From NCBI GenBank assembly GCA_904066235.2, contig CAJFCV020000004.1:682001-746000 (forward strand): DNA of 64,000 bases, written 5' to 3'. The position numbers were made by a program, and so were the translations under genes. The DNA is from Bursaphelenchus xylophilus. Taxonomy: Eukaryota > Nematoda > Chromadorea > Rhabditida > Aphelenchoididae. The notes under the pieces are model-generated. The model was given only the letters and a program-made list of their open reading frames with translations. It did not search any database and was not told the origin of the DNA. Every line of letters begins with the position of its first letter. Position 1 is the first letter of the stretch. Shown piece after piece: positions 12,083 to 63,680 of this stretch.

Positions 12083-12915
12083 TTGCACTGTGCAAAAACT
12101 AATCGTTTAGTTCACTGTGCACTGTGCGGCAAAAATTTTTTTCTATTTGTTTGCACTGTGCAAAAAGAAAGTTTTTTCACCGCACAGTGCAGTTTGGGCG
12201 ACAAACAGGATCGTTTTTTTTGCACTGTGCCAACAAAAGGGATTTTCCTGTGTGTTGCACAGTGCAGTCAAAAAAATAATTTTTATCTTGCACAGTGCGC
12301 AATTTATTCCTCTGCACTGTGCGGCAAATTTTTTTTATTTGTCTGCACTGTGCGAAAGAAACCTTTTTCGCCGCACAGTGCAACTTGGGCGACAAAGACG
12401 GTCGTTTTTTTGCACTGTGCGAACGAACGTTTCTTTGCATAGTGCAGTCGAAAATAATTTTTCTCTTGCACAGTGCGCAATTTTGGGCCATATTCTGCGA
12501 GGAAAAGTTTTGTTTACCGCACGGTGCGGGAAGCAAATAAATAATTTTCATTGCACTGTGCAAGCAACTGAGCCTCCGAGGAAGCCTGCACCGTGCAATC
12601 AAAAAAATTTTCTTTTGCACAGTGCAGATTTCAAAATAATCGTTTCGCACTGTGCAGACAAAAAAGAGTTTTGTTTGTCTGCACTGTGCGAAAGAATCTT
12701 TTTTTCACCGCACAGTGCAGTTTGAGCGACAAAAAGGATCGTTTTTTTTGCACTGTGCCAACAAAAGGGATTTTCCGGTGTGTTGCACAGTGCAGATTTC
12801 AAAAAATTTCCGTTGCACTGTGCGGCCAAAAAACATTTATTTTTCGCACGGTGCGCCAAAAAAATTATTTTTCGCACCGTGCAAAGAATAAAACCTTATC
12901 TTCATCACTGTGCAG
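12083..12915. repeat. GCAC-N-GTGC palindrome array 1
   Basis: About two dozen palindromes at 25-45 bp spacing, with spacer words such as GGGCGACAAA. T- and A-centred copies alternate in pairs, and flanking residues vary between TTGCAC and CGCAC. It lies 3' of the hyaluronidase gene. Long ORFs here are by-products of the repeat. Confidence 0.95.
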
Positions 12916-13009
12916 TCGCCTCCAAAAATCATATAAATTAAAAATAACGTCAGCAGATAGAATTTTATTAACATAATAAAGCACAGCTGTGTTCGCAACA
13001 TTATTTTAG

Positions 13010-16000
13010 CTACCTAATTTGGTTTTGGCATTGTTCACCGGTAAAGCCTTCATCGCAGATACACGTAGGATTCTGAATCGTATGGCCGAGATGGCACTCG
13101 TCGGGGATTGTAATCTCTTTTGTTGAGCAGCGCCCGTTGTTATTGCAGTGGGACTCTCGACATCTGAAAAAAAAAAATTTTGGAGAAAATTTTTTTTTGC
13201 ATTTTTAATTTTTTTGGGGAAAAATTAAGAGCTGATAATGTGGAATCTGTTTTGAAAAAGTTATAATATAATTATATAATTTTTTGTCTAATTTTTTGAA
13301 AATTAAAAAATTTTTTTTTGCACTGTGCAAAAATTTGTGTTCAATTTTTTTACCGGTTGTAAAAATTTAATAAAATTTTTTTTTGCAATGCTGAAAATTC
13401 AGTATATTTTTCATAGAAATCAAAAAAAAAAAAAAAAAATTTTTTTTGATTGCACAGTGCAGTCAAAAAAAATTTTTTTGCACTGTGCAGAAATTTGCGT
13501 TAATTTTTTTACTAAGTGTAAAAATTTAATAAAAAAATTTTTTTGCAATGCTGAAAATTCAGTATAGAAATCAAAAAAAAAAAAAAAAAAAATTTTTGCA
13601 CTGTGCGAAAAGTACATTTCTTTTTATCTTGCAAATTAATGCAAGACAAAAACATACGCCCCCAAATTCTTCATACAAACCAAAAAAACTCACTTTTTCG
13701 CTTTCCTCTTCACTTCCGTCGCGAACGGTCCCAACTGGTTCTTGAGGTACTCTTCCAGCCCATTGCATCTCTGTTTCATCCGATAACTGCTGCTCCAAAT
13801 AATCACTGCCTCCACACCGAGCTCCATGGGATACTTGATTGAGGCGCACAAATCGTTCTTACTGTAGAAATCCGCATCCACCGAGTCGGAGGGCGAATAC
13901 TCGATTTTGATGTACGGAATGATCCGCAAATTTTTGTTGAACTTTGCCGCATAATTGTAGGTTTGTTTTAAGCGGGCATACGCGTGCTTCAGACGGCCTT
14001 CGGATGGATCGTCGCCGTAGAAGTAGATCGATGGATAGAGAGCGTCCGCGTTCTCGGGGATATAGGACAGTCTAAAAAAAATCTTTTTTTCTGTGCACCG
14101 TGCAATGATGCATTCAAAAAAATTTTAATCGCACTGTGCAAAAAAAATTTTTTTTTTCACAAATCCGCACTGTGCAATCAAAAATTTTTTTTTTGTTTTT
14201 GTAACGCACTGTGCAAAAAAATTTTTTTTTCACAAATCCGCACAGTGCAATCAAAAAAAATTTTTTTGCACTGTGCAATTTTCACAATTTTGTTTTTGTA
14301 ACGCACTGTGCAAAAAATATTGCCCTTTCCTGTCACCCGCACCGTGCAAGCAGACCATTTTTCTTGATTGCACCGTGCGAAATCAAAAAAACTTTTTTCG
14401 CACTGTGCGATTAAAAATGAAATTATTTATATTGCACAGTGCAAAAATCATTTTTATTGCAACGCACTGTGCAAACCTGTTTCTAATTTTTGGCTGGCAC
14501 AGTGCGAATCGAAGCAACCAACAGGAATTTGCACTGTGCGACAAAACAAAGAGATTGGATTGCACTGTGCAAAACATTGTTTGTCGCGGAAATTGCACTG
14601 TGCAGAATGTTTTTTGCCGCGGAAATTGCACCGTGCAAAACATTTTTCTAGTCGCTAAAACTGCACTGTGCAAAAAATTTTTTTTGTCGCTGAGCTTGCA
14701 CAGCGCAAAACACCTTTTTTGTCGCTGAATTTGCACCGTGCAAAACGCTTTTTTGTCGCTGGAAATGCACGGTGCAAAACGCTTTTTTTGTCACTGAAAT
14801 TGCACTGTGCAAAGATTTTCTTGTCGCTGAACTTGCACAGTGCAAAACAATTTTTTTGTCGCTGAAATTGCACTGTGCAAAACATTTTTTCGTCGCCGAA
14901 ATTGCACCGTGCAAAACACTTTTTTTTTGTCGCTGGAATTGCACAGTGCAAAAAACTTTTTTTGTCGCTGAAAATGCACCGTGCAAAACGCGTTTTTTGT
15001 CGCTGGAAATGCACTGTGCAAAACGTTTTTTCTAGTCGATAAAATTGCGCTGTGCAAAACATTTTTTTGCGCGCTGAACTTGCACAGTGCAAAACACTTT
15101 TTTTTCGCTGAAGTTGCACTGTGCAAAATGTTTTTTCTAGTCGCTGAAATTGCACTGTGCAAGAATGAATATTTTGTTTGCACAGTGCGGAGAATAAAGA
15201 AACAAAAAGAATCGAACGTACTGTGCATTGTAGTCATCATAGTAGGCCAGGCACTCCGACTGGTTGTAACCAGCCGAGTAATCGCACAATGGATACTCCC
15301 AGAATCCCCATTTTCCTTTGGGCCGCATTTTCTTGGCCAATTTTAGCGTTTCGACCATAAACTCTCTGAAAAATGTGTGAAATTTGAGTTTTCTGGATTC
15401 AAAATGCCATTTCACGGCAGGAAAAGCTGTTTGAAGCCATCTGAGGATGTCTGTATGTCTGCTATTTCCAAGACCATCGTATCCTGCTTACCTTGCGGCC
15501 GTATCGAACGTCTCCCTCGCCAGATGTTCCAATTCATGAGGGTTCATCTTCGCATGGTCACGTTCCAGCAACGTCCTCGAATAGCGTTGATAGATTCGTC
15601 GAGAACTCCAGTTTAGATCGTAGAGTGGACGCCACGCTTCGTAGTCGATTACTCCGTAGCCGTCAAAATTGGGGTCGGGAATCGCGCTCTCCAGATCTTT
15701 TGCCGCTTTTTCCAGGTGCGCCGAGAGATTTGCGGCCTGAAAATTTTGAAAAAAGCAGTCTTTATGTTGTCAAATACGAGGCTGAAAAGAATTGGGAAAT
15801 TTTGCAAAGTTTTGAGTCCCACAACGAAAACTTGAAAAATTTTGGCATTCTGCAACAAGCTTTAAATATGAAAAATTTTGAGTTTGAATAACATTGAAAC
15901 AGTTTGGCTGTGAAATCTTGTGTTTTTTGGATGAATTTGATCCCACCACGGAAACTTGAAAATTTTTGGCATTCTGCAACAAGTTGTAAAAATGTAAAAT

Positions 16001-18228
16001 TTCAAATATTGGTAGATCCTAAACACCCTTGAGAGCCAAATTTTAATGGTTTTGGAACTTTGGGTCACACCGCGAAATCCTGAAATTTTTTGGCATTCTG
16101 CAACAAGCTGTAAAAATATGAAATTTCAAGTATTGAAAGATCCTAAACCCATTTGAGCGCCAAATTTTATGGGTTTTGGAACTTTGGGTCCCACCGCGAA
16201 ATCCTGAATTTTTTTAGCATTCTGCAACAAGCCGTAAAAATATGAAATTTCAAGTATTGAAAGATCCTAAATCCCTTCGAGTGACAAATTTGATGAATTT
16301 TGGAACTTAGGGTTCCACCGCAAAGTCCTGAAATTCTTTTGGTATTCTGCAACAACTTTAAAAATGTAAAGTTCTGAATATTGAAGGATCCTAAACCTTT
16401 TTGAGAGCCAAATTTTATAGGTCTCGGAAATTTGGGTCCCACCGCGAAATCCTGAAATTTTTGGCATTCTGCAACAAGTCGTAAAAATATAAAATTTCAA
16501 GTATTGAAAGACCCTAAACCCATTTGAGAGTAAAATTTTATGGGTTTCGGCACTTTGGGTCCCACCGCGAAATCCTGAATTTTTTTTGGCATTCTGCAAC
16601 AAGTTGTAAAAAAGTAAAATTTCAAATATTAAAGGATCCTAAACCCCCTTGAGAGCCAAATTTTAATGGTTTTGGAACTTTGGGTCCCACCGCGAAATCC
16701 TGATTTTTTTGGCATTCTGCAACAAGCCGTAAAAATATGAAATTTCAAGTATTGAAAGATCCTAAACCCATTTGAGTGCCAAATTTTATGAGTTTGGGAC
16801 TGTGGGTCCCACCACGAAAATTTGAAAATTTTTGGCATTCTGCAACAACCTTTAAAAATGCACAGTTTTGAATATTGAAGGATCCTAAACCCATTTGAGT
16901 GCCAAATTTTATGAGTTTGGGACTTTGGGTCCCACCACAAAAATTTGAAAATTTTTGGCATTCTGCAACAAAATGCAAGGTCGGCGAGAAACAGAAATAC
17001 ACCAATCCATCAACATGAAAAAGTCTCCAAACTCACCTGAGGAACCCCTCCATTCACTGGAATACACTCCGGCTTCTTTTCGCCCACCTTCTGCTCCGAA
17101 GCACAAAAGGGGAACAGACCGAAAGTCTCATAAAGAAGAACAACTTTGTCTCCCCAAAAATTGTTGAATTGGTTGACAGTTACATTGTACTCACTCGGGT
17201 TGACATTTTTACATTGTTTACTGGGGATGTTCCAGATTACCTAGAACGAATTTTTGATTCAAAGTAGTTTCAAATTGCACTGTGCGAAGAGACCTTTTTT
17301 CAGACTGCACAGTGCAAAAAGAATTTTTCGAATTCATATTGCACAGTGCAGAAAAAATATCGTTTTCTTAGGATTGCACAATGCAAAAAAAAATCAAATT
17401 CAAATTGCACAGTGCAGAGAGTTCTTTTTCATTTTTTTCAGACTGCATGGTGCAGAAAAGATATTGTTTTTTTTGGATTGCACAGTGCAAAAAAATCAAA
17501 TTCAAATTGCACAGTGCAGAAATTTTTTTTTTCAGACTGCACGGTGCAGAAAAGATATTGTTTTTTTAGACTGCACAGTGCAAAAAATTCTTTTTTGGAT
17601 TGCACAGTGCAGAAAGTTTTTTTTTCAGACTGCACGGTGCAGAAAAAATTTGTCTTTTTTGGATTGCACAGTGCAAAAAAAAGTCGAATTCAAATTGCAC
17701 AGTGCAAAAAAATCTTATTCAAATTGCACAGTGCAGAGAGTTCTTTGTCAGACTGCACAGTGCAGAAAAAAATATTGTTTTTTTGGATTGCACAGTGCAA
17801 AAAAAGTCGAATTCAAATTGCACAGTGCAAAAAGTCGTTTTTTCAGACTGCACAGTGCAGAAAAATAATGTTTTTTTTAGACTGCACAGTGCAAAAAATT
17901 CTTTTTTAAATGGATTGCACAGTGCAAAAAAATCAAATTCAAATTGCACAGTGCAGAGAACTCTTTTTTAGGCTGTACGTCGCAGAAAAAAATATTGTTT
18001 TTTCAGACAGCACAGTGCAAAAAATTCTTTTTTTTTTGAGTGCACAGTGCAAAAAAAGTCGAATTCCAATTCCACAGTGCAGAAAAACTGTGTTTCTAAT
18101 ATTGCACAGTGCACAGCAAATTCAAATTCTCATTGCACAGTGCGAAGGCTAAAAACAAAAAAAAAATTTACCTCAAATCCCACTGCATAACAAATGCAAA
18201 GACATAGTAATACCACAACTCTGCTCAT
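13010..18228 (-). CDS. Hyaluronidase/chondroitin hydrolase (glycoside hydrolase family 56) with C-terminal EGF module
   Basis: Six exons: 18172-18228, 17037-17240, 15492-15736, 15222-15365, 13694-14071 and 13010-13163, about 394 residues with matching phases. It starts with a signal peptide (MSRVVVLLCLCICYAVGFE). VIWNIPSKQC and the FWGDKVVLLYETFGLFP and NGGVPQ segments are GH56 signatures. The catalytic motif is VIDYEAWRP (Asp118, Glu120; the family has D-x-E). Further family blocks are WGFWEYPLCDYSAGYN and AVIIWSSSYRM. The last exon is an EGF-like module with six cysteines ending CICDEGFTGEQCQNQIR. In C. elegans the homologous enzyme CHHY-1 acts on chondroitin, so substrate cannot be assigned from sequence. 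Introns 1, 4 and 5 consist largely of GCAC-N-GTGC arrays, and intron 2 is a 120-bp tandem repeat. AATAAA follows the stop on the minus strand. Confidence 0.94.
13318..13608. repeat. GCAC-N-GTGC palindrome array 2 (hyaluronidase intron 5)
   Basis: Five palindromes separated by long A/T tracts. Two copies of a larger unit (palindrome, then AAATTTGTG/CGTT, then TTGCAATGCTGAAAATTCAG) indicate tandem duplication. Confidence 0.9.
14092..15226. repeat. GCAC-N-GTGC palindrome array 3 (fills hyaluronidase intron 4)
   Basis: The array begins 20 bp from the acceptor and extends to the donor. From about 14560 the unit is a regular ~34-37 bp repeat, palindrome plus AAAACA(N)TTTTTTGTCGCTG. Most centres are T. 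The donor GTACGT overlaps a degenerate palindrome (TGCACAGTAC). Confidence 0.95.
15745..16985. repeat. ~120-bp tandem repeat filling hyaluronidase intron 2
   Basis: About ten units, each with TTGGCATTCTGCAACAAG, a run like ATTGAAAGATCCTAAACCC and GGGTCCCACCGCGAAA. Units differ by point changes. There is no GCAC-N-GTGC motif in it. ORFs here repeat VVAECQKF-like peptides and are not genes. Confidence 0.92.
17276..18145. repeat. GCAC-N-GTGC palindrome array 4 (hyaluronidase intron 1)
   Basis: About 25 palindromes, nearly all A-centred on the plus strand. Spacers carry AAATTCAAA and TTTTTTCAGAC. Confidence 0.95.
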
Positions 18229-20215: not shown

Positions 20216-20266
20216 AAAAAAAACTAAAGCCGGGTTAAATGAGCAGCCGCTTTTGTACAGTTTTTA

Positions 20267-26700: not shown

Positions 26701-29700
26701 TTATACGATCGAAAAATTAGGCGTGACATGTTATACGATTGAAAAATTTTTTCAAATTGAGAAAAATTAGATGTGGCATGTTATACGATGAAATTTTTTT
26801 TAAAGTAAGAAAAATTAGGTGTGACATGTTATACGATGAAAAAATTTTTCAAATTGAGAAAAATTAGGTGTAACATGTTATACGATGAAATTTTTTTTAA
26901 AGTGAGAAAAATTAGGTGTGACATGTTATACGATGAAAAAATTTTTCAAATTGAGAAAAATTAGGTGTGACATGTTATACGATGAAAAAATTTTTTAAAT
27001 TGAGGAAGATTAGGTGTGACATGGTATACGATGAAAAAATTTTTTTTAATTGAGAAAAATTAGATGTGACATGTTATACGATCGAAGTTTTTTTTCAAAT
27101 TGAGAAAAATTAGGTGTGACATGTTATACGATGAAATTTTTTTTAAAGTGAGAAAAATTAGGTGTGACATGTTATACGATGAAAAAATTTTTCAAATTGA
27201 GAAAAATTAGGTGTGACATGTTATACGATGAAAAAATTTTTTAAATTGAGGAAGATTAGGTGTGACATGGTATACGATGAAAAAATTTTTTTTAATTGAG
27301 AAAAATTAGATGTGACATGTTATACGATCGAAGTTTTTTTTCAAATTGAGAAAAATTAGGTGTGACATGTTATACGATGAAAATTTTTTTTTAATTGAGA
27401 AAAATTAGGTGTGACATGTTATACGACTGAAAATCTTAGTTCGTACTAGCCGTTCCAGAAAGTACGTAGACTTTGTTTGAGTTCATTTTTTTGGTCGTTT
27501 TTTCGGCTCTTTGGCGTGTGTGAAAATCGTCAGAAAAATGACTTTTTTGCGAATTTTGTCGTGAGAAGTTTTACGCTTGTTGCAGCCGTAGAGAATACCG
27601 TTTCCACAAATAAAATGCGATCATTTCGTACGTTCCTGGCCGCAAAGATGGTTGAATATCTTGACCGCCGCTGACAGGGATGAGCTTAAACGTTCAGCAA
27701 TTTATAAAGTACTTTCCTTGTGAGATGAATTTCAGTCGCTCTGGAACGCCGTAAAATTGCAACTGGGGATGCCAATCGAAGTGTCATGGCGCAGTTACGG
27801 AGGTAACCCCCGATTCCCCTCGAAAAATCTCGTTTTCAGCCAAATTCAACATGGTTTTCGTCTCCATCTTCCAAGGCGTCATATTGATGGGCGTTTATAG
27901 TAGTTGGATATTGACGCAAAAGTACGCCAACGACATCGTCAACGACTTGCAGACCAACAACGATCTGATTCGACAGGTCGCGGCGGGAAGGAGGTATTTC
28001 GCGGATGCGACCGGGAATCATTGGTTTTTTGAGGCCATAAATCACAGTACAATGTTCCCATATGCCGACTTGCGATTGGCGATGAGGAGTGAGTGGGATT
28101 TTGGCGGGTTTTAGAGGGATTTTTGAGTGTTTTCAGAATGATTTTTTGTCGGAAAATTTTTGAAAAAAGATAATTTTAGCCCTAAAATATCAGATTCTGC
28201 CCAATTTTTTCGTGGAAAAATGGCCGATTTTTTGTCGGAAAAATTTTGAAAAACGATAATTTTTGCCCTAAAATATCACATTCTAATCGATTTTTTCATT
28301 GAAAAATTCTAAAATTCGATTATTTTCCGACAGATTTTTTCAGTGAAAAATTTAGAAAAAAGATAATTTTAGGGCTAAAGTATCACTTTCTAATAGATTT
28401 TTTTTCGATGAAAAATTTCTAAAATTTTATTTTTTCAGAATGATTTTTTGTCGGAAAAATTTTGAAAAAAGATAATTTTAGCCCTAAAATATCACATTCT
28501 AATCGATTTTTCATTGAAAAATTCTAAAATTCGATTATTTTCCGACAGATTTTTTGTCGCAAAAATTTTTAAAAACAATAATTTTTGCCCTAAAATATCA
28601 GATTCTGACCATTTTTTTTTGAAAAATTCGAAAATTCCATTTTTTCAGACCGATTTTTTATCAGAAAAATTTAGAAAAAAGATGATTTTAGCAGGAATTA
28701 CCACTTTCTGACCAATTTTTTTCTTTGAAAAGTTCTAAAATTCCATTTTTTCCGACAGATTTTTATCAGAAAAATTTTGAAAAATGATAATTTTAGCCCT
28801 AAAATATCAGATAATTTAGAAAAAGATAATTTTGTCTCGAAATACCACTTTTTGACCGATTTTTCTTTGGAAATGCCCAACATTCGATTTTTTCTGACCA
28901 ATTTTTTGTCGGAAAATTTGAAAAAAAAAATATTTTCTCTCAAAATTCCCTTTTAAAAGCGATTTTCAGCACTTTCTCGAGGCTATATACAATTTTTACA
29001 CCGATTGTTTATCAGAAAAACTGCAAAAGCTTGCTTTCAGAGACCCCAATGGAGATTACTGGAAGCAGTAAGAATGCACTGGATCTGGCGTCGCACGGCT
29101 CCGCATTGGTCGCGATTATGGATGACGAGTTGGTGAGCCTCAGGGCGAAGAAGTATTGCAAGTAAGAGCTGTAACTTTTACCCCGAATTAAGAGTTTGTC
29201 GGGGAAAAACGAGCACTTTGTAGTAGCGAAAATCGCGCACAGTGCGGCGATCGAAGCAAAATTTTTCTTTTTACGGTCAATGAAATCGCTAAATAATCGG
29301 TGATATCAGTCCGTCGGGAAAATAATGAGCACTCTGTCGCAACGAAAATCGCATCGCCTCCAGGAACATGAAATTTGACGCGACAAAATCAAACTCCTTT
29401 TCACTTCGCGATCGACCCCGCAACATTATGCTCATTATTTTCCCAGCAGACTGATACAGTGAATTTGCCAACCGGATCCATTGGCAAAAAACGTATAATT
29501 TTGCATCCGGGAAGTATCAAAAATGTGGCAAAATGCCTCCCTCTCCAACTAAAAAAACCCCATTTTAACGGGCTCTCTCATAAAAAGAGCGGGCGCGCTT
29601 TTGAAATCGGAGTCTTTTTTTATTGTAATGGGAGGTATCTTGCCACATTTTTTGATGCTTCCCGGATCCAAAATGGCGTGTTTTTTGCCACTGGATCAAG

Positions 29701-42117: not shown

Positions 42118-42672
42118 CGCACTGTGCGATCTTTATTTTCCCGCTGCACCGTGCAGCAAGCTTATTTCAGCCGCACCGTGCGGTTTGTCAACCTGCACAG
42201 TGCGAAAATCGCTAAAATTGATCGCACAGTGCTAAAAACAAATTTCGATTTCGCACTGTGCACAAACTTGTCGCTTTTCCCACCGCACTGTGCGCTCTTT
42301 TTGACTGCACAGTGCGACCCTTACCGCAGCCGCACCGTGCGTTTTCCCCATCTGCACAGTGCAAAAAGTCGCTAAAATTGATCGCACAGTGCTAAAAACA
42401 AATTTTGATTTTGCACTGTGCACAAACTTGTCGCTTTTCCCACCGCACAGTGCGCTCTTTCCCCACTGCACCGTGCAAGAAGCTTATTTCAGCCGCACTG
42501 TGCGTTTGATGTTCTTGCACAGTGCGAAAAGTTGCTAAAATTGATCGCACTGTGCTGAAAACAAATTTCGATTTTGCACTGTGCACAAACTTGTCGCTTT
42601 TCCCACCGCACAGTGCGCTCTTTTTGACTGCACAGTGCGGTCAATTTTTTGATTTTTCACTGCATAGTGCGA
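42118..42672. repeat. GCAC-N-GTGC palindrome array 7
   Basis: Three copies of a ~210-bp higher unit containing CTAAAATTGATCGCAC, ACAAACTTGTCGCTTTTCCC and paired CGCAC-N-GTGCG forms. Confidence 0.94.
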
Positions 42673-44172: not shown

Positions 44173-45851
44173 TCAGTCTGGCCCACAGCATTCCGAACTT
44201 TTTTCGCCACCGATCGGTGTCGAAAAAAATTGAAAAATCGAGAGAGGGGTATGCATTTTTTTGTGTTGCCGGCTAGCAAAGGCAGGTATTGCAAAATTTG
44301 AAAAGGTGTTTGATACTCTGAAGATTACTCATTCTAATTATACAAAAATTGTCACCATGCACTTTGTAACCCCCGAGAAAATCGCATTCAAAAAAATGAA
44401 AATTTCAGATATAAACGCAATGAAAATGCACTTTCTAGTTGACTACTGAAGAAAAAAAAGATGCTATCGTGTAGAGAATTTTGAGTACTTCCTAATACGT
44501 ATATTTTTTCCGTTGTTTTCTAACAGTTTTAGAGCTACCGTGCAAAAACGCCTTTTTTTGCACTTTTTGCGACTTATCTGCACTTTAAATGCAAAAATGC
44601 AAAATCTTCCGAGCAATTATCATTTTTGGCATCCTTGTGGATATACATGCCAAATTTCCAATTTCTGCGATGCTTCTGTCTGCTGATATATCGAAATCAT
44701 TACGAAACCTTGACAACTTATTAACGCGCCTTGAAATATAAATTTTGTGACATTTTCGATAAAAAGTCGTTATATGCACTCTATTTGTGAATTTGAAGGT
44801 ATTAGCTTGCGTTTGGACTGCATTAACGGGAATAGAAAAAGCTGCGTTTGTGTATGAAATCAACATTTTTCATGATGACATGAAGCTGTCTCATAAACTG
44901 TACGAATAACATTCGGGGTTGGCAAAATACATTTTAGGAAGAAATAAGGCTATCCTACAGTAAAAACAGCAAGTTTTCTATGTTTTTCTTCGGGAACTTA
45001 AGTTGTCAAGGTTTCGTAATTATATCGATATAACAGGAGACGGGAGCGTCGTAGAAATTTGAAATTTGGCATGTATATCCACAAGGATGCCAAGAATGAT
45101 AATTGCTCGGAAGATTTTGCATTTTTGCATTTAAAGTGCAGATAAGTCGGAAAAAGTGCAAAAAATGGCGTTTTTGCACGGTAGCTCTAAAACTGTTAGA
45201 AAACAACGGAAAAAAATATACGTATTAGGAAGTACTCAAAATTCTCTACACGATAGCATCTTTTTTTTCTTCAGTAGTCAACTAGAAAGTGCATTTTCAT
45301 TGCATTTAAATCTGAAATTTTCATTTTTTTGAATGCGATTTTCTCGGGGGTTACAAAGTGAATGGTGACAATATTTGTATAATTAGAATGAGTAATCTTC
45401 AGAGTATCAAACACCTTTTCAAATTTTGCAATACCTGCCTTTGCTAGCCGGCAACACAAAAAAATGCATACCCCTCTCTCGATTTTTCAATTTTTTTTCG
45501 ACACCGATCGGTGGCGAAAAAAGTTCGGAATGCTGTGTGGCCGAAAAAGAATTTCACCCCCCTCCGCACAAAAATCGCAACCCGAAAATCCAAACCTGCG
45601 CGCGACATCGGAGATTTTCCGCGACGAAAGGGAAAAATCGCTAAAATTTGGTGAATGCACAGTGCAAATGAACAAAAACAACGGTTTGCACTGTGCAAAA
45701 CAGGCCCGAAACCCCGATTTCGTGCGTGCGACACGTCGCTTTCTTCGTTTTTTCGGCGACATGCCCCAAATTTCTCCGCGATGCAAATTGGTGTTTGGAG
45801 TGCGTGCGACGGAGGGGTTCGGGGTGCGAAATTCTTTTTCGGCCAGACTGA
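44173..45851. mobile_element. MITE, family 'TCAGTCTGGCCGAAAAAG', interrupted by a nested element
   Basis: Ends TCAGTCTGGCC / GGCCAGACTGA with TA outside (44171-44172, 45852-45853). GAAAAAGAATTTC follows the nested insertion and is mirrored before the right end. It contains two GCAC-N-GTGC palindromes. An uninterrupted relative is at 59413-59722. Confidence 0.83.
44184..45537. mobile_element. Nested 1354-bp foldback element, Transib-like termini
   Basis: Near-perfect arms of about 538 bp (44184-44720 and about 45000-45537) flank a 277-bp core. Ends read CACAGCATTCCGAAC. The 5-bp GC-rich duplication TGGCC (44179-44183 and 45538-45542) lies exactly in the host MITE's TIR. A 5-bp GC-rich target site and CAC-initial termini are the Transib pattern. 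Each arm holds a 62-residue ORF starting MCCRLAKAGIAKFEKVFDTL, with no known domain and present only by duplication. Confidence 0.75.
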
Positions 45852-47472
45852 TAACGCCGCACCGTGCACCCCAAAACGTGTGTTGCACAGTGCAATAATC
45901 TTTTTTGGCGCACTCTGCAACAACAAAAAAAACACTGTCGCACTGTGCGGATTTGAAAAAAAAACAACTTTTTTGTTGCACCGTGCGGACAAAATTTGTC
46001 GCCGCAAAATCAACCGTTGCACAGTGCGATCAATGTGTTTTCGGCGCACTGTGCAAAAATGGGCTTGTCCGCAAAAATGTCTCTGCACTGTGCAGTCGCA
46101 AAAACAGGCTGTCGCACTGTGCGCAAACATTTTTCACTGCACTGTGCGGTGCCACCACAGATCAATGTGTTTTGGCGCACTGTGCAAACAAAAAAAATAC
46201 ATAATACTTTTTTTACTGCACTGTGCAATAACAAAAAGAGACTGCACTGTGCAAATTGAAAAAAAAACACACCAATTTTTTCGCTACACCGTGCGAAAAA
46301 ATTTGTCACTGCACTGTGCGGTGCCACCGACCGTTGCACAGTGCGAGCAATATTTTTTTGGCGCACTGTGCAAAAACCTGTTTGTCCGAGAGAAGGCTCT
46401 GCACTGTGCAATAACAAAGAGAGACTTTTGCACTGTGCGAAAAACAATTTTCATTGCACTGTGCACACTGTGCGATGCCCCACAGATCAATGTTTTTTGT
46501 CGCACTGTGCAAGAACCTGTTTGTCCGAGAAAAGTCTCTGCACCGTGCAATAACAAAAAAAGTTTTTCGCACTGTGCGAAAAACAATTTTCATTGCACTG
46601 TGCACACTGTGCGATGCCCCACAGATCAATGTTTTTTGTCGCACTGTGCAAGAACCTGTTTGTCCGAGAAAAGTCTCTGCACCGTGCAATAACAAAAAAA
46701 GTTTTTCGCACTGTGCGAAAAACAATTTTCATTGCACTGTGCACACTGTGCGATGCCCCACAGATCAATGTTTTTTGTCGCACTGTGCAAGAACCTGTTT
46801 GTCCGAGAAAAGTCTCTGCACCGTGCAATAACAAAAAAAGTTTTTCGCACTGTGCGAAAAACAATTTTCATTGCACTGTGCACACTGTGCGATGCCCCAC
46901 AGATCAATGTTTTTTGTCGCACTGTGCAAGAACCTGTTTGTCCGAGAAAAGTCTCTGCACCGTGCAATAACAAAAAAAGTTTTTCGCACTGTGCGAAAAA
47001 CAATTTTCATTGCACTGTGCACACTGTGCGATGCCCCACAGATCAATGTTTTTTGTCGCACTGTGCAAGAACCTGTTTGTCCGAGAAAAGTCTCTGCACC
47101 GTGCAATAACAAAAAAAGTTTTTCGCACTGTGCGAAAAACAATTTTCATTGCACTGTGCACACTGTGCGATGCCCCACAGATCAATGTTTTTTGTCGCAC
47201 TGTGCAAGAACCTGTTTGTCCGAGAAAAGTCTCTGCACCGTGCAATAACAAAAAAAGTTTTTCGCACTGTGCGAAAAACAATTTTCATTGCACTGTGCAC
47301 ACTGTGCGATGCCCCACAGATCAATGTTTTTTGTCGCACTGTGCAAAATTTGTCCGCAAAAAGTGTCTGCACTGTGCAATTACAAAAAAAGTTTTTCGCA
47401 CTGTGCGAAAAAAAATTTTCATTGCACTGTGCAGCAATATATAAAACTCCAAAAAGTCTTTGCACTGTGCAC
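45655..47472. repeat. GCAC-N-GTGC palindrome array 8
   Basis: Dense array of mostly T-centred palindromes with TTTGTCCG and GATCAATGTGTTTT spacers. The second half is the 139-bp higher-order repeat. Source of the 345-residue false ORF. Confidence 0.95.
46454..47340. repeat. 139-bp higher-order tandem repeat
   Basis: About six and a half units with virtually no differences, each with five palindromes plus GATGCCCCACAGATCAATG and AACCTGTTTGTCCGAG. Period 139 = 46 codons + 1, so ORFs cycle through all frames. Confidence 0.95.
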
Positions 47473-48689: not shown

Positions 48690-49303
48690 TGCACCGTGCG
48701 AAAAATTTCTTTCCCCATTGCACAGTGCAAAATAAAAAATTTTCGCTGCACAGTGCAAAACAAAAAACGGATTTGCCGCACAGTGCAGTCCCAATATTTT
48801 CGTTTGCACCGTGCGAAAACATAATTTTGAAGAATTTTGTTATTGCACAGTGCAAAAAGCCAAAGATTTTTTACGCACTGTGCGTCGGAAAGGGAAACGA
48901 TTTTTCGCACAGTGCAAAACAAAAGAACGAATTTGCCGCACAGTGCAGTCCCAAGATAAGCTATTTGCACAGTGCGAAAACATAATTTTGAAGAATTTTG
49001 TTTTTGCACAGTGCAAAAAGCCAATGAATTTTCACGCACTGTGCGTCGGAAAGGGAAACGATTTTTCGCACAGTGCAAAACAAAAAATGTATTCTCTTCA
49101 CAGTGCAAAACAAAAGAACGGCCTTGCCGCACAGTGCAGTCCCAATATTTGTCGTTTGCACAGTGCGAAACAATAATTTTGGGGGTTTTCGTTATCGCAC
49201 AGTGCAAAATTTGTAAAAAATTTGTCCGCCGCACAGTGCATAGCGAAAAGATGAATCATCGCACCGCGCAAAATAAAAAATTGATTCGCTGCACAGTGCA
49301 ATA

Positions 49304-49497
49304 CTAGTCCTTCCGGAAAGTCGGCGGACGGAAATCGGCGACATGCACTCCGCGAAATCGAAAGTTCACTTTGCACTGTGCAATTTTTGGCTTTTTGCAC
49401 TGTGCAATAAGCTTTTTCGAGCTGTCGCTCGCACCCTGAGTTTTTTCTCACAGTGCATGTCGCCGATTTCCGTCCGGCGACTTTCCGGAAGGACTAG
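49304..49497. mobile_element. MITE, family 'CTAGTCCTTCC', inverted copy
   Basis: TIR CTAGTCCTTCCGGAAAGTCG and complement. The core is the reverse complement of the copy at 11183. Confidence 0.88.
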
Positions 49498-49499
49498 TA

Positions 49500-49693
49500 C
49501 TAGTCCTTCCGTAAAGTCGCTGGAATGATTTCGGCGACGCGCACTGTGCAAGAAAACTCAGGGTGCGAGCGACGTCCCAAAAAAGCTTATTGCACTGTGC
49601 AAAAAGCCAAAAATTGCACAGTGCAAACTGAACTTTCGGTTTCGCGGAGTGCATGTCGCCGAAAACATTCCAGCGACTTTACGAACGGACTAG
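49500..49693. mobile_element. MITE, family 'CTAGTCCTTCC', direct neighbour
   Basis: Same length and family, opposite orientation to 49304-49497, sharing the single TA at 49498-49499. Confidence 0.88.
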
Positions 49694-50167
49694 TAGAAAA
49701 AACGGATTTTCCGCACAGTGCAGTCCCAATATTAGCCGTTTGCACAGTGCGAAAAAAACAATTTTGGGGGTTTTCGTTATTGCACAGTGCAAAATTTGTA
49801 AAAAATTTGTCCGTTGTGCATAGCGAAAAGATGAATCGTCGCACTGTGCAAAACAAAAAATTTATTCGCTGCACAGTGCAAAACAAAAAGTTGATTTATC
49901 GCACAGTGCAGTCACAAGATTAGCCATTTGCACTGTGCGAAAAAACAATTTTGGGGGTTCTCGTTATTGCACAGTGCAAAATTTGTAAAAAATTTGTCAG
50001 CCGCACAGTGCCGCGAAACAAAAAGTCGATTTACCGCACAGTGCAAAACAAAAGACGGATTTTCCGCACAGTGCAGTCCCAATATTTGTCGTTTGCACTG
50101 TGTGGCAAAAAAAACAAAGCGGGTTTTTTGCACTGTGCAGATTATTTATAATTTTTGCATTGTGCAA

Positions 50168-50749: not shown

Positions 50750-51702
50750 TTTTGCACGGTGCAAACGAAAAAAAAATCATTCTGCACCGTGCAAAATTTG
50801 CGAATTCATTCTGCACTGTGCTTTTTTTAAAAAAAAGTTTTCCCGCACTGTGCATTTTTTCTATTTTTCTGCACTGTGCAATCGAAAAAAAACACAAATG
50901 TTTGTTTTGCACTGTGCAAGCGAAAATAAAAACAAGTTTTTCCGCACTGTGCATTCTTTTCTTATTTTTCGCACAGTGCTATCAAAAAAACAAAAAGTTT
51001 TTGTTTCCACCGTGCAGAATTTGCGACTTCATTTTGCACTGTGCAATCGCAAAACAAAAAGTTTTTGTTTGCACCGTGCAAAATTTGCGAATTCATTCTG
51101 CACTGTGCTTTTTTTAAAAAATTTTCCCGCACTGTGCATTTTTCTATTTTCTGCACTGTGCAACCGAAAAAACACAAATTTTTATTCCGGACTGTGCAAA
51201 AATTGGCGACTTCATTCTGCACTGTGCAAGCAAAAAGAAAAACAAGTTTTCCCGCACTGTGCATTCCAAACTTTTCTGTCGCGTTTTTCGCGCACTGTGC
51301 ATTTTGCTTTTGGTTTGTTCTGCACTGTGCAAGCGAAAAGAAAAACGAGTTTTCCCGCACTGTGCATTCTTTTCCAATTTTTTGGCACAGTGCAATTATG
51401 CAATTTCGAAAACATTTTTCTTCCGCACTGTGCAAACGTTTCTGTCGCAAGCTTTTCGCGCACTGTGCATTTTGCTTTTTCTTCAGATCGCACTGTGCAA
51501 TTTGCCGCACTGTGCATTCTCTTTAATTTTTCTGCACCGTGCAAATTTTTCTGTCGCAAGTTTTTCGCGCACTGTGCATTTCGCAAAATGCCTTTTGGTT
51601 TGTTTTGCACTGTGCGGTCAGATTACGCAATCGCACAGTGCGCTTTTTTTGCCAAGCCGCACAGTGCGGGAAATCTGAGGGGTTATTTTGTTTGCACAGT
51701 GC
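50750..51702. repeat. GCAC-N-GTGC palindrome array 10
   Basis: Mostly T-centred. The unit includes AAAATTTGCGAATTCATT and AAACAAGTTTTCCCGCAC. Gives a 292-residue false ORF. Confidence 0.95.
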
Positions 51703-52586: not shown

Positions 52587-53795
52587 TTAGGTTGGACGGA
52601 AAGTTCGTACGATTTTTTACCCAACTTTCAATTTAATTTTTTTCGCGCCAAGACCGATTGCCCACTGTAAATACCTAGCATATACAAGAGTACAGTGTGA
52701 AGATTTATATGCTACGTGCCAATCGTTAGCTCCGCCAAAACGAGCTTAATTATAAGAGGTTTTCCGCTTTGCGGCTATTTCGGGTAGGGTCCAGAACGCA
52801 AACTCTAGTTTCCAGATCGCTTTCGATGAAGCTCTGACACTTTTTAGGCAATGTCCAGTGGTCTTTCTGACTACGTTAAACACAATTAGAAATCTTAAAA
52901 AAGCGTGTCGGATAAAATAATAGCAACACTTTCAACCAAGTCTTCAGCAAAGGCCCCCTATGAAAACTTTTTCTTATTATTCCGCGTATTGCTTATGATC
53001 TGTCTCTGTAATAGGGTTCAGTAAGGCATATGGAGAGCCCTTTAAGTGCAACATGAGTAAACCGGATCATAGACGCCTCGGGTTATCCACAAAGAGACAA
53101 AATTGCCAAAAACTATAGCTGTAGAGAAATGCGTATAATTTTGTGACAGTTAACAATGGCAGCCCGTTGTTTCGCGAAGTAGTAGAGCAATAAAGCGGCT
53201 CTATTTTGCACCCAAGAAAGGGAGGAGTGGAAAGATGTTATGAGCTCTTTTTAGAATTGTACGGGATGATCCAACAGTTCACCAACGATTTTTTGAGAAA
53301 AGTAATTTAGTAGTTATTATGTCGTACGGCAAAACAGTTGGCTATTGAGGGGTAGCTGAGTGTAAGGGATTGTCCTTAGTTTCTGCATATCATAGTTTTA
53401 CACATATAAATGCACCGGCAAAGCGGCGGTTGCAGTTACATTCAAACTTGGGGTGGTCCTGCAAAAGTCAAATTTTATGGCTATGTTTTGATTTAGTCCC
53501 CGGCGACTTTACGCATATTAAGAGCTACAAAAGAAGGCTTTTTAGCAGTGCCACAACAATTTCCTGGTAGGCCTTATTAAACAAACCAGCCAAGGATTTG
53601 TAATTTTGGACCAAAGATGGGTAAATGTCTAAATTAAGTTCTCAGTTCGTACATGCTTAAGATGGTTGAGGGTTGTACTGCCAGATAGGGATGCCTGTCT
53701 TCTACCAATACCATATATTTGTGTTTGTCTTTTTCCATCAGCGCACGAAAAAATAGCAGCAGTAAAAAATCGTACGAACTTTCCGTCCAACCTAA
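52587..53795 (+). mobile_element. mariner element, decayed
   Basis: 34-bp TIR TTAGGTTGGACGGAAAGTTC... and complement, TA at both sides, 1209 bp. TTAGGTTGG is a classic mariner terminus. Near 53470-53530 the plus frame reads FDLVPGDFTHIKSYKRRLF, resembling the transposase block SPDLAPSDYHLFRSL that holds the third catalytic Asp. Stops elsewhere show it is dead. Confidence 0.85.
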
Positions 53796-54746: not shown

Positions 54747-56012
54747 CGCACAGTGCGGTTTCAGAAAATTTACATATTTTGCACAGTGCAGTGAAAAAAG
54801 AAAAGGAAAAGTGGGAAATGCACGGTGCGAAAAAACCAAACAAAAGAAGTGTTTTTTGCACAGTGCAATTTCAAATGCGGCTTTTGCACAGTGCAGTGAA
54901 AAAAGAAAAGGAAGAGTGGGAAATGCACGGTGCGAAAAAAAACAAACAAATGAAGTGTTTATGCACAGTGCAATTTCAAATGTGGCGTTTGCACAGTGCA
55001 GTGAAAAAAGAAAAGGAAAAATGGCAAATGCACAGTGCGAAAGAAATCAAACAAATGAAATTTTTTGCACAGTGCAATTTCAAATGTGTCTTTTGCACAG
55101 TGCAGTGGATAAAGAAAAGGAAAAATGCGAAAAATCAAACAAATGAAGTTTTTTTTGCACAGTGCAGAATTTCGTTGGACTTTTGCACAGTGCAATTTGT
55201 AAAGTTTTTTTGCACAGTGCAGTTGAAAAAAATGGAATTGCACGGTGCGAAAAAATCAAATAAAAAAAGTGTTTTTTTCACAGTGCATATTTTCGTGGGA
55301 TTTTTGCACAGTGCAGTTCCAAATGTGTCTTTTGCACAGTGCAATTTGGAAAGCTACCCTTGCACAGTGCAGAGGAGAAAGAAAAAGGAAAAAAATAGGA
55401 ATTGCACGGTGCGAAAAAATCAAACAAATAAAGTGTTTTTTGCACAGTGCAGAATGTCGTTGGACTTTTGCACAGTGCAATTTCAAATGCGGCTTTTGCA
55501 CAGTGCGGTGAAAAGAGAAAAGGAAAAATGGCAATGCACGGTGCAAAGAAATAAAAAAAATGTCTTTGCACAGTGCCGAATTTCTATAGACTTTTGCACA
55601 GTGCAATTTGGAAAGTTACTTTCTCACAGTGCAATTCCTAATGTGGCTTTTGCACAGTGCAGAAATTTACTGGATTTTCGCACAGTGCAGCTCAAACCTT
55701 TGCTCTTGCACAGTGCAGAATTTTACTGGATTTTCGCACAGTGCAGTGGAAAAAGAAAGGAAAAAAGGGAATTGCACGGTGCGGAAACCCCAGAAAAAAG
55801 TTTTTTTTGCAACTGCACAGTGCAGAATTTTGTGGGATTTTTGCACAGTGCAATTCGAAATGCAACTTTTGCACAGTGCAATGGAAATAATTAAGGGGCA
55901 AAATGACCGTCGCAGAGGGTGAAAAAACCAAAAAAAAATATTTTAGCATAGTAGAAAAATTAGCGATCTTTGCACGGTGCAAAAAAAAAAGCTTTTTTTA
56001 TTGCACAGTGCA
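54747..56012. repeat. GCAC-N-GTGC palindrome array 11
   Basis: Nearly all A- or G-centred. ~110-bp units with GTGAAAAAAGAAAAGGAA, AAACAAATGAAGTGTTTT and CAATTTCAAATG. Source of the 371-residue false ORF. Confidence 0.95.
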
Positions 56013-56621: not shown

Positions 56622-57512
56622 CAGCGCACGGTGCAGAAGCTGCACAGTGCAAACAATTTTTTCGCACTGTGCAATTGAACAAAAAAATCCGTTTGAGAAA
56701 ACTGCACTGTGCAAGAGAACTTCTTGTATCGCAGAAATTGCACTGTGCGGTTGAAAAATTATTTTGCACAGTGCAGTTAACCCAAAAAAGTTCGTTTCGA
56801 AAAATGGCACTGTGCAAAAGAAAGGAGCTTCTTTTGTCGCAGAAATTGCACTGTGCGGTCGAAAATTTATTTTGCACTGTGCAATTGAACAAAAAAGTCG
56901 GTTTCGGAAAATTGCACTGTGCAAAAAAGCTTCTCTTGTCGCAGAAACTGCACAAATCGCAAAAAAATCACACGCACGGTGCGGTGCGACCGAATTTATT
57001 TTGCACTGTGCAATGAACAAAGTTCCGAGTCCGTTTCAGAAAATTGCACTGTGCAAAAGAACTTTTTTTGTCGCTGAAACCGCACCGTGCAAAACAATTT
57101 TTCTTGGCTCTGTGCAACTAAACAAAAATTCTGTGCAGTGGCGCACAGTGCAAAAGAAGTTCCTTTCGAGAAAACTGCACTGTGCGGTCGGAAAATGACT
57201 TTGCACTGTGCAATTGAACAAAAAAGTCGGTTTCGGAAAATTGCACTGTGCAAGAGAACTTATTTTGTCGCAGAAACTGCACAGTGCAAGCAAATTTCTT
57301 TTTGCACTGTGCGGTTCAACGAAAAACGTTTGTTTGAAAAATTGCACTGTGCAAACAAAACTTCTTTTGTCGCAGAAACTGCACGGTGCAAGCTAACTTC
57401 TTTTTGCACTGTGCAGTTGAAAAAAAGGTCAGTTTGAAAAAACTGCACTGTGCGGTCGAAAAATAATTTTGCACTGTGCGAAAAAATCTTCTGCATCAAA
57501 AATCCCTCTGCA
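56622..57512. repeat. GCAC-N-GTGC palindrome array 12
   Basis: Mostly T-centred. Spacers AACTTCTTTTGTCGCAGAAA, TTGAACAAAAAAGTC and CGTTTGAGAAAA. Confidence 0.95.
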
Positions 57513-58089
57513 CCGTGCGACTTTTCTTTACCACAGCAGCGATGTCGAACATGTCATTGCTCAATCTGAAACGATTTCCATATTAGCGCATTTTCGAAAA
57601 CGTTTTATCGGCCCTTCAAAAAATGAGGGGGAGCTCTTGTTGGCAACGCGCACTTCTCGCAATGCAAAGTGAGGGTGGGAATTTGCATAAAATGTTGTTA
57701 TGGGAGTTCTCGGCAAGAAAAGTGATAGATTATCGACATGTATTTACATATCCGGTATTACGCAATAAATGGGGGGAAATTTTAAGAAAAAAATTTGAAA
57801 ATATATAAAAACAAATTTTTTTTAGTAAAAAAATTACGTCATCAAAAAATTTATTTTTCCCCTAATTCAGTTTAAAAGTCCAAAAAAAGGTTCAAACTGA
57901 TTTCCGTCAGCCATGAAACCCATGAAGACCACTTTTACTTCCATCGCCATTGTCTAAAACCACCCTTTTCTTTCTTTTTGGGTCCATAATCCCCAAAACA
58001 AACGTCGATACTCAATCAAACACGAGAAGAGAAGAGATTCGTTACAAAAGAAAGGAATTTGGCCAATCGAAGAAACGAAAACTTTTTGT
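57513..58089. other. Unique island with an octamer site, no gene
   Basis: ATTTGCAT, the POU octamer on the opposite strand, lies at 57681-57688 in about 250 bp of unique sequence. Confidence 0.4.
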
Positions 58090-58719
58090 CCCACTGTGCG
58101 GAGAAAAAATTGGAGACTGCACGGTGCAACAAAATGGAAAAAGATTTTTTGTTGGCGCACTGTGCAATCGAAAAAGCGTTGAATTTGCACTGTGCGAAAT
58201 TTTTTGTCACAGGAATTTTGCACCGTGCAAAAAGCGGGTTTTCTGCACCGTGCATGCAAAACGTTTGACTCCGCACAGTGCAAAAAAAAGTCTTGTCGCT
58301 GCACTTGCACTGTGCAAAAAAAAGGTTCTGAAAAAATGCACAGTGCGACAAAAAGCGTTTTGTCGCACAGTTCACTTCCGCAACGTGCATGGGAAACTTT
58401 TGATGCACCGTGAAAAACGAAGCCTTGTCTTATCGCTGCACTTGCACAGTGCAATTTGTTTTGAGAATTTTTTTGCACTGTGCAGTAAAAAAATGTTGAA
58501 AAAATGCCCGCACCGTGCATGCCACTTTTTGACTGCGCACCGTGCGAAAAGATGGTTTGTCGCTGCACTTACACAGTGCAATTTGTTTTGAAATTGGAAA
58601 CGCACAGTGCAATGCGAATTTTTCCCTTGCACTGTGCAGCGAAAAATTTCTGGCAAAAGTGTCCGCGCCGTGCGAAAAGCAGCCTTGTCTTGTCGCTGCA
58701 CTTGCACAGTGCAAAAATA

Positions 58720-59050
58720 CTAATCGCGCTCAAAAGTCCTGACAATTTTCGCACCGTGCATTCTTCTTTCATTTCATCCGCACGGTGCATCTCTTCGCAT
58801 TTGTCGCCGCGATTTCCCGTTTTTGCACACTTTCGCGCGCGACAAACCCGAATTTGAGGGCGCGAGGTCCAAAACCCGAACTTTCGCACTGTGCATTCTT
58901 CTTTCATTTCGCATTTGTCGCCGCAATTTCCCGTTTTTTCACTAGCGACATGCACTTTTGCGCGCGACGAACCCGAATTTGCAGGGGCGACGTCCAAAAC
59001 CGAAAGTTTCGCACGGTGCGAAAATTGTCAGGACTTTTGAGCGCGATTAG
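58720..59050. mobile_element. MITE, family 'CTAATCGCGCTCAAAAG'
   Basis: TIR CTAATCGCGCTCAAAAGTCC and complement. Right TA at 59051-59052 is shared with the next element. Contains several GCAC-N-GTGC units. Confidence 0.85.
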
Positions 59051-59052
59051 TA

Positions 59053-59402
59053 CTAGTCGCGACATAAAGTCCTGACACATTTCGCACCGTGCGAAAGTTC
59101 GGGGTTTGGACGTCGCGCCCCCAAATTCATTTTGCACCGTGCATTCTTCTTTCATTTCATCCGCACTGTGCATCTTTTCGCATTTGACACCGCGATTTCC
59201 CCTTTTTGCACCAGCGACGTGCAAAACCCGAACTTTCGCACCGTGCATTCTTCATTCATTTCGCATTTGTCGCCGCGATTTCCCGTTTTTGCGCTAGCGA
59301 CGTGCACTTTCGCGCGCGACAAACCCGAATTTGGGGGCGCGACGTCCAAATCCCGAACTTTCGCACGGTGCAAAATGTGTCAGGACTTTATGGCGCGACT
59401 AG
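59053..59402. mobile_element. MITE, family 'CTAGTCGCGACATAAAG'
   Basis: TIR CTAGTCGCGACATAAAGTCC and complement. The core has TTCTTTCATTTCATCCGCAC, CCGCGATTTCCC and palindromes. Confidence 0.85.
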
Positions 59403-59412
59403 TAAGGTTCTA

Positions 59413-59722
59413 TCAGTCTGGCCGAAAAAGAATTGTCCTCCGCGCCCCCCTCCGTCGCACTCACTCGAAACCCCAATTTGAAATTTGGAGGGCGTCGCCG
59501 AAAGAAAGAGCAAAAACGACGCATCGCCAGCGATAAAAGTGGGTTTTGCACAGTGCAAACGGCTTTTTTGCACTGTGCAATCAACAAAATTCCCCAAATT
59601 GAGGCGATTTCTTCTCGTCGCGCGCATTTTTGCGACACATCGCTCAAACTTTCGGTGCCGCTCATTTTCGAGGTTGCGATTTCGATGCTGCGACGAGGGT
59701 AATTCTTTTTCGGCCAGACTGA
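59413..59722. mobile_element. MITE, family 'TCAGTCTGGCCGAAAAAG'
   Basis: TCAGTCTGGCCGAAAAAGAA to the complement, TA at 59411-59412 and 59723-59724. Two palindromes lie in the core. Confidence 0.86.
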
Positions 59723-59724
59723 TA

Positions 59725-59897
59725 CTAGTCGCGACATAAAGTCCTGACACATTTGCACAGTGCATTTTGTTTTTCTTTCGGACCCGTCGCGGCAATTCCC
59801 CTTTTTTGCACTAGCGACATGCACTTTCGCGCGAGTTCGCCGCTTTTCTCGCGCGACACCCGCGACAAAATGTGTCAGGACTTTATGTCGCGACTAG
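59725..59897. mobile_element. MITE, family 'CTAGTCGCGACATAAAG', short copy
   Basis: Shares its left TA with the previous MITE. Matches the truncated copy at 36990-37138. Confidence 0.86.
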
Positions 59898-60835: not shown

Positions 60836-61246
60836 TTCACTGTGCTATTTTTCAGATTTTTTTGCACGGTGCAATCAAAAACAGATTTTCTGCACTGTGC
60901 ATTTGAAAACAAAGTTTTTGCACGATGCAATCGAACGTAAATTTGCCCGCACCGTGCAAAAACTCGATTTTATTGCACTGTGCGGAAGCGACAAAATAGG
61001 ATTCGATGTTTGATGCACAGTGCGTACTCGGACAAGTTTGTTGCACTGTGCGGAAAAAATATGCTTTTCGCACAGTGCAGTCAAAAAATACGTATTCTTT
61101 TCGCACCGTGCATGAACAAAAGGTATTCTTTTTGCACAGTGCAGTCAAAAAATATATATTCTTTTCGCACAGTGCAGTCAAAAAATATATATTCCTTTCG
61201 CACAGTGCGGTAAAAATAAATATTCTTTTCGCACAGTGCAGGACAG
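60836..61246. repeat. GCAC-N-GTGC palindrome array 14
   Basis: Mixed centres. The last third has AGTCAAAAAATATATATTC spacers in tandem. Confidence 0.93.
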
Positions 61247-61296
61247 AAATCCATATTTTTTAACTAGAATTCTCTAAAATTTATAGTTTTATACAG

Positions 61297-61409: not shown

Positions 61410-61529
61410 GTAAATCAATTTGGGGCGCGTCTTTGGTCTCTGGAAGAACGGGGGAGTTTCGGAAATTTTTGGGGATTGCAGAGCGAGGAATCAGGATTTT
61501 AGAGGGAGCATTTTGAATGTTTTGCAGTA

Positions 61530-62285: not shown

Positions 62286-62289
62286 CAAA

Positions 62290-62620: not shown

Positions 62621-62652
<32 letters not shown>

Positions 62653-62680
62653 AAATAAAAAAATGAAATAAATAAAAATC
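62290..62680. repeat. (AAAAT)n-type simple repeat
   Basis: About 390 bp of AAATAAAATAAAAAAAATA variants with almost no other base. Confidence 0.97.
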
Positions 62681-62707
62681 AAGTGTCTTACAATAAAAGT
62701 TATAAAA

Positions 62708-62845
62708 TCAGTCTGTCGGGAAAATAATGAGCTCTCTGTTGCATCGAAAATCAAATCGGAAAAAATGAATTGTGTCGCGGCAAAATCAAAAAAAATTTTT
62801 TTTTCATTTCAGCAGCGACAGTGTGCTCATTATTTCCCCGACAGC
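62708..62845. mobile_element. MITE, family 'TCAGTCTGTCGGG', right end truncated
   Basis: TCAGTCTGTCGGGAAAATAA at the left. The right end stops in TATTTCCCCGACAG before the expected ACTGA. Confidence 0.78.
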
Positions 62846-63404
62846 ATAGTATTCGTATAATATTTTGGACAACATATGTAGTCAAAAATTGGCCATATTT
62901 TTTTTTAATTTTTCAATTTTTTCCCCAAAAAAATTAATTTATTTTTCCAAAAATATAAAAAAAGTTGGTTTAATTTATAGAGAATAGATGTATTTACGTA
63001 TTTTACCATCAAAACCTAGAATTTTCCCCTCCAAAACTAACAAAACATAAACAAAAATAAAAGTTCAGCTGCCCTCAAAAACTACAAATTTATCCTTCAA
63101 CCCTAAATAAACTCTCTTCCACCTCATTTTACACCCTTAATTCAACTTCAAACCCGTTGTAAACTCTTGATTTGACCAGTTTTGTAAAGGCGAGGAATTA
63201 ATTTTGACAGGACAAGAAGTCGTAAAACCCGATTGGTCAAGAGGAGACAACCGAAACGGAGGGATTTTAATTCCCCTCCCCTTCTGTACAAACCCATTCA
63301 AGCAAGACGCCGAACGAAATTACCATGCAAATTTGAATACTTTTGCGCGGTATGTATAACAAATATTGGGAAATGCGAAAAAAAAATATTTGAAAAAAAT
63401 TTTT
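62846..63404. other. Unique island with a POU octamer, no gene
   Basis: 63190-63350 is unique. ATGCAAAT, a perfect octamer, lies at 63325-63332. Confidence 0.4.
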
Positions 63405-63680
63405 TTTTTTGCACAGTGCAGTCTCAAACAGACAAAAAGTTTTTGCACAGTGCAAAATTTTATAAAGTTTCCTCTGCACCGTGCATATTCATAAAAATGG
63501 AAAATTTTGCACAGTGCACTGATTTTTTTTTTGTAATTCTTTTGCACAGTGCAGTCTCAGAAAGATAAAAAATTTTTGCACAGTGCAAATTTTTTTTTCA
63601 AATTTTTTTTTTGTGCAAATTTATAAAAATCAAAAATGGCACAGGGCAAATAAGATATTCTTTTGCGCGGTGCAGTCTTC
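63405..63680. repeat. GCAC-N-GTGC palindrome array 15
   Basis: About eight palindromes, mostly A-centred, some decayed (GCACAGGGC, GCGCGGTGC), with GTCTCAAACAGA spacers. Confidence 0.92.

Follow-up and report, generated by a model that had tools for sequence, protein, structure and literature searches.

Judged by analogy, the nearest precedent for the repeat described here is the set of HIM-17 binding sites in the miniature elements CERP2 and CELE2 of Caenorhabditis. HIM-17, a THAP protein related to transposase, binds motifs in these elements, and the motifs lie within the inverted repeats of elements present in thousands of copies (PMC9757741). In the nematode Bursaphelenchus xylophilus, we analysed a stretch of 64,000 nucleotides (the window; contig C4, CAJFCV020000004.1 of assembly GCA_904066235.2, positions 682001-746000) in which a palindrome, GCAC-N-GTGC, recurs in arrays and, as in CERP2/CELE2, within miniature inverted-repeat elements. 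However, the m1m2 site of CERP2/CELE2 consists of two different motifs (PMC9757741), whereas the present repeat is one palindrome whose centre base is free, in about ten times as many copies and with large arrays beyond the elements.

Palindromes are found among the satellite families of four Caenorhabditis species, as is a AGAANNTTCT repeat linked to Helitrons; in C. elegans, one family is missing from chromosome centres (PMC4595182). The B. xylophilus sequence is likewise a palindromic motif in tandem, but its arrays have only an 11-base site in common and its sequence is unrelated; the Helitron-linked satellite was rejected as a candidate because the palindrome repeated here is YGCACNGTGCR and not the AGAANNTTCT decamer, and neither TGCAC nor GTGCA occurs in the main text of that report. 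The HIM-8/ZIM motifs of C. elegans are protein-binding sites that are also short, numerous and placed towards chromosome ends (PMC9071541), whereas the repeat described here is found on both arms of five of the six chromosomes. Sequences for elimination include a short palindromic motif in O. tipulae and two-part or 24-bp, non-palindromic motifs in early-branching Caenorhabditis (PMC13370393). Those sequences mark telomere-addition sites, whereas the present palindrome occurs tens of thousands of times, and membership of that class is unlikely because of its 41,616 copies. A search of the open-access literature by motif letters returned no matching nematode repeat among the papers listed. The initial annotation of the stretch also knew of none; identity with a satellite already on record, which it had named as evidence against its reading, did not emerge from the open-access papers searched.

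Abundance and form of the palindrome

We found that GCAC-N-GTGC is more abundant than the initial annotation had claimed. The window contained 395 copies of GCACNGTGC, 391 of them within 12083..63680, where several hundred had been estimated; 100 runs of a first-order Markov null gave a mean of 0.45 and a maximum of 3. Genome-wide (78.25 Mb; six of the contigs are large, at 12.1-15.1 Mb, and two are small), GCACNGTGC occurred 41,616 times and the reversed pattern 178 times, far from the near-expected count that the annotation had named as evidence against a special repeat. The longer form TTGCACNGTGCAA was present in 8,775 copies (control, 0). With two centre bases instead of one, the pattern GCACNNGTGC was no commoner than its control (243 versus 291 in the genome), and the one-base centre is therefore obligatory for the enrichment.

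The repeating site unit is YGCACNGTGCR; 381 of the 395 window copies have a pyrimidine (Y) before and a purine (R) after the core. Extension to TTGCACNGTGCAA had been called usual, which proved too strong a word for 82 of 395 copies. All four bases occur at the centre, as had been noted (A 163, T 160, C 47 and G 25 in the window; A 41%, T 42%, C 11% and G 6% in arrays only). In the arrays, the left outer base is Y in 99% and the right outer base R in 97% of copies, and the two vary independently, again as first described (chi-square p = 0.48).

About fifteen arrays over some 13 kb had been proposed, with spacings of 25-45 bp; we delimited 14, which sum to 12,276 bp, and the 336 core-to-core intervals within them had a median of 33 bp and a minimum of 16, with 302 at 20-50 bp. 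The placing of the copies in arrays holds for 350 of the 395 but not for a minority of 38, which, by masking with an element library, lie in inverted-repeat elements. Array spacers are AT-rich (GC 33%, compared with 39% for the window). The arrays are as follows.

12085-12882: array, 24 cores
14095-15188: array, 31 cores; adjoins a hyaluronidase exon-like open reading frame (ORF) at 13690-14124, minus strand
17277-18143: array, 24 cores
36444-37108: array, 19 cores; right end fuses with a CTAGTC-type element at 36991-37138
37918-38730: array, 25 cores; adjoins a cadherin-domain ORF at 37183-37860, minus strand
42119-42638: array, 20 cores
45657-47470: array, 49 cores; includes 7.8 copies of a 139-bp unit at 97% (46354-47433)
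48691-50138: array, 35 cores; encloses two 194-bp elements
50754-51702: array, 29 cores
54748-56011: array, 35 cores
56626-57518: array, 26 cores
58119-58717: array, 15 cores; abuts a run of inverted-repeat elements
60864-61239: array, 12 cores
63411-63586: array, 6 cores

Both the cadherin-domain ORF and the hyaluronidase ORF have an array on either side, and these flanking arrays are probably intronic. Elements lie within or abut arrays at 49304-49693 and 58720-59897. The one array searched against the genome, 12085-12882, had a top match elsewhere of 71% identity, suggesting that the arrays have little in common except the motif; in that one array, a whole unit common to arrays, as in a conventional satellite, was not found.

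Conservation of the half-sites and variation of the centre base

In alignments of adjacent copies from 16 tandem-repeat rows of the window, core positions differed in 14 of 917 comparisons (1.5%), spacer positions in 273 of 2,417 (11.3%), the centre in 21 of 116 (18%) and the outer base in 18 of 227; spacer divergence is understated in these figures, because the row at 56999-57453 had no spacer mismatch and gap columns were excluded. Five array stretches on C1, C2, C3, C5 and C6 gave differences of 23/784 for the core, 169/2,162 for the spacer, 26/98 for the centre and 8/192 for the outer base. In the 14 window arrays, 350 cores were exact, 31 had one mismatch and 19 had two (0, 1 and 18 for the reversed control), and in the five stretches on other chromosomes the corresponding numbers were 174, 11 and 15 (control, 0, 3 and 10). 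Retention of the eight outer bases while the middle base varies is thus firmly established, and the proposal that constraint acts on the two GCAC half-sites was borne out.

We also compared each core with its closest copy, requiring at least 21 of 24 identical flanking bases. The centre had changed in 33 of 226 such pairs and the flanks at 212 of 5,424 positions, a ratio of 3.7 (resampling of 18 arrays by bootstrap: median 3.8, 1.7-5.9). That the centre base evolves faster than its flanks is suggestive only, because the pairs are mutually dependent and the change is uneven among arrays, as discussed below. The 38 centre changes were of mixed types, with 19 transitions and 14 complement swaps, the latter not being decisive for flipping of the centre through inversion.

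Conserved halves and a free centre are what would be expected if two identical protein halves were in contact with the DNA, and of the origins suggested initially, the sequence pattern favours a symmetric protein's binding site; a selfish palindrome, another of those origins, is a further candidate. As the constraint, a hairpin, which had also been suggested, is unlikely: its loop would be one base, and no alternative palindrome replaces GCAC/GTGC, which forms the arms of 350 array palindromes and is followed by AAAA with 40 and CAAA with 9. Hairpin or RNA pairing was accordingly rejected, a single palindrome being retained and neighbouring centres being the same in 167 cases, complementary in 73 and otherwise related in 96. 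Helical phasing of the core spacings was weak and inflated by duplication, and hence is not claimed.

Miniature inverted-repeat elements carrying the palindrome

The initial annotation had offered a link to transposition as one option, and this is supported, as a group of miniature elements with inverted repeats carries the palindrome. The copies delimited in the window are as follows.

11183-11376: 194-bp inverted-repeat element, TA-flanked, 3 cores
49304-49497: 194-bp element, sharing one TA with the next element, 2 cores
49500-49693: 194-bp element, 3 cores
58720-59050: 331-bp element with CTAATC ends, 4 cores, the first at base 32
59053-59402: 350-bp element with CTAGTC ends, 5 cores, the first at base 32
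59413-59722: element with TCAGTCTGGCC ends, TA-bounded, 2 cores
59725-59897: 173-bp element with CTAGTC ends, 1 core

In the main families, the ends start with CTAGTC or CTAATC and continue with a variant of AAAGTCCTGACA; the ends of one element family are TCAGTCTGGCC, similar to those of Tc1. The 194-, 331- and 350-bp elements are short and non-coding and have matching terminal inverted repeats, as do miniature inverted-repeat transposable elements (MITEs). A putative TA target-site duplication was present on both sides of six of the eight window copies inspected, one copy having no left TA and one needing shifted ends. Among 89 TA-bounded inverted-repeat matches in the analysed sequence, 79 contained the core and the 10 core-less ones had different ends, with the qualification that the matches overlap, that TA was a search condition and that many loci were retrieved by similarity to the elements or the motif.

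The 194-bp type also has the dispersed, highly similar copies of a MITE: in the 40 regions scored out of 1,156 candidates, we found 40 other copies at 93-99% identity and 5 at 85-89%, on all six chromosomes. A 354-bp query retrieved 16 other full-length copies, 11 at 91-99% and 5 at 82-84%. In 17 ten-kb stretches from the six chromosomes, picked by position and thus non-random (six were contig starts), 21 of 29 cores fell inside a 16-member element library built from the same loci as were masked, and the remaining sequence held 0.05 core per kb. At three junctions in the window (49494-49503, 59047-59056 and 59715-59730), abutting elements have one TA in common, and it looks as if new copies enter the TA flanking an older copy. 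Taken together, the elements are likely transposons, as judged from their ends, copies and flanks. The first 10 kb of the unplaced contig C8 (14.6 kb) contained 60 cores, most of them within inverted-repeat elements nested in one another (42 fell in library elements).

Chromosomal distribution

Chromosome positions rest on exact words and not on all 41,616 sites, and matches within 50 kb were merged into loci. TTAGGC-type telomeric repeats were found where C1, C4 and C7 begin; these repeats, the six large contigs and a single mir-71 match slightly over its cut-off (51.1 versus 50 bits) are consistent with a rhabditid nematode. The array word TTTTGCACCGTGCAAAA occurred at 249 places (control, 0), and none of the 100 places listed lay in C1 5.05-12.5 Mb or C2 3.7-9.4 Mb. 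Its 19-base form, a subset, occurred at 64 places, all listed, which merged into 46 loci; only 2 of these lay in the middle 40% of chromosomes, against 18.4 expected (P = 3e-8). Five chromosomes carry this word on both arms. C4 is the exception, with all six of its matches on the left arm and none on the right.

The exact end of one CTAGTC family, by comparison, gave 71 loci from the 100 listed of 101 places; 25 of these loci fell in the middle 40%, where 28.4 would be expected (P = 0.24). The difference between element ends (25/71) and the array word (2/46) was significant (Fisher p = 8e-5), which argues that these elements, unlike the arrays, extend over the length of the chromosomes.

Possible origins of the sites and arrays

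YGCACNGTGCR is predicted, in a reading that we hold to be about evenly poised, to be bound by a symmetric protein, probably a dimer; it lies both in inverted-repeat elements, likely transposons, and in arrays, which are rare in mid-chromosome. A protein with two-fold symmetry would read both half-sites. Transposase sites are often near element ends, and because the palindrome is also near element ends, the binding protein would most likely be the transposase of the elements or a host protein of transposase descent. Insertion of elements would seed the site widely, and local duplication on the arms would build arrays; C. elegans chromosomes recombine most on their arms, and recombination may play a part here. 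Intact sites would endure because bound sites are favoured, through either host use or a copying advantage. Several observations weigh against this proposal. Array spacers are unlike the elements, so that the seeding of arrays by elements is presumptive. The 194-bp family is also thin in mid-chromosome, with 7 of 34 loci against 13.6 expected (P = 0.014, scored candidates). The core is looser in the five arrays on other chromosomes (2.9%, compared with 7.8% for the spacer), one array giving 12 of 23 differences, and the fast centre is uneven, no centre change being seen in 9 of the 17 arrays that gave usable pairs. Furthermore, the exact ends of one family, at the 100 listed of 101 places, formed no clear long pair that could represent an autonomous partner, and no binding protein or transposase gene was identified, the THAP search being uninformative since its control was itself without any match.

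The numerous near-perfect copies and the concentration of arrays on the arms also fit a motif-dependent drive, in which the palindrome would promote its own copying wherever it is bound or cut, through local duplication or biased conversion, with no benefit to the worm, a possibility that we regard as tentative. The palindrome may then be self-propagating, in the manner of a binding-site drive: carried by MITEs, amplified into arrays on the arms only, restored in broken copies by intact ones and worn at its uncontacted centre by repeated binding or cutting, although we rate this fuller version, too, as rather improbable. Repeated breakage and repair could produce a centre that differs 3.7 times as often as its flanks (33/226 versus 212/5,424), but no conversion event was directly observed, the centre changes are of mixed type (14 of 38 complement swaps, 19 transitions), and the 9 of 17 arrays without centre change also speak against it. 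The same preference for the arms, together with arrays that adjoin or separate exon-like ORFs, is compatible with a host platform, in which a protein of chromatin, recombination or germline expression would use the arrays, ordinary selection would keep the sites, and the elements would have borrowed or delivered them. Elements that deliver germline promoter motifs are known (PMC9757741), but selection acting individually on tens of thousands of sites would be hard to sustain, and we consider this explanation, like the drive, doubtful. An ordinary minisatellite family, with the motif as the part that survives alignment and no protein involved, would account for recent local duplication, such as that of the 139-bp unit at 97%, and palindromes and A-tracts are frequent in nematode satellites (PMC4595182). 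It is very improbable, however, in view of the eight bases kept while the centre and spacers change and of the identical site in elements and in arrays with unrelated spacers. Least probable of all is a meiotic pairing-centre motif like those of HIM-8/ZIM but of unusual sequence. The repeat is a short motif towards chromosome ends, and HIM-8/ZIM homologues occur in many Clade V nematodes (PMC8455136), but known pairing centres lie near one chromosome end (PMC9071541), whereas array-word loci were on all six chromosomes, five of which had them on both arms. The HIM-8 12-mer of C. elegans had 6 matches against 2 for the control, and this unenriched word and the two-arm distribution of the array word led us to reject the pairing-centre candidate.

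Other repeats in the window

Four further repeats were found in the window. An element at 5663-8709, without the core motif, has long inverted ends (5742-6012 and 8448-8709, 95.6% alike) around ORF pieces, one of which, at 6467-6898, had a DUF7869 match above cut-off. A near-perfect foldback at 44180-45542, with arms of about 544 bp that are 96.5% alike, begins next to TCAGTCTGGCC-type ends. A distinct 49-bp tandem repeat at 26711-27433 (14.7 units at 87%) and a 1,209-bp TA-bounded element at 52587-53795, with perfect 36-bp inverted ends and ORF pieces of 89 amino acids or fewer, are both without the core.

Biological implications

The presence of about 40,000 near-perfect symmetric sites in a small genome would imply a protein dedicated to them and, if the favoured explanation is true, this would be an extreme case of protein sites seeded by transposons. 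The contrast between element ends and arm arrays may serve as a natural test of how dispersed sites turn into arrays, and a fast base within a near-invariant palindrome would be an unusual mutational signature, which could be tracked across strains of the nematode.

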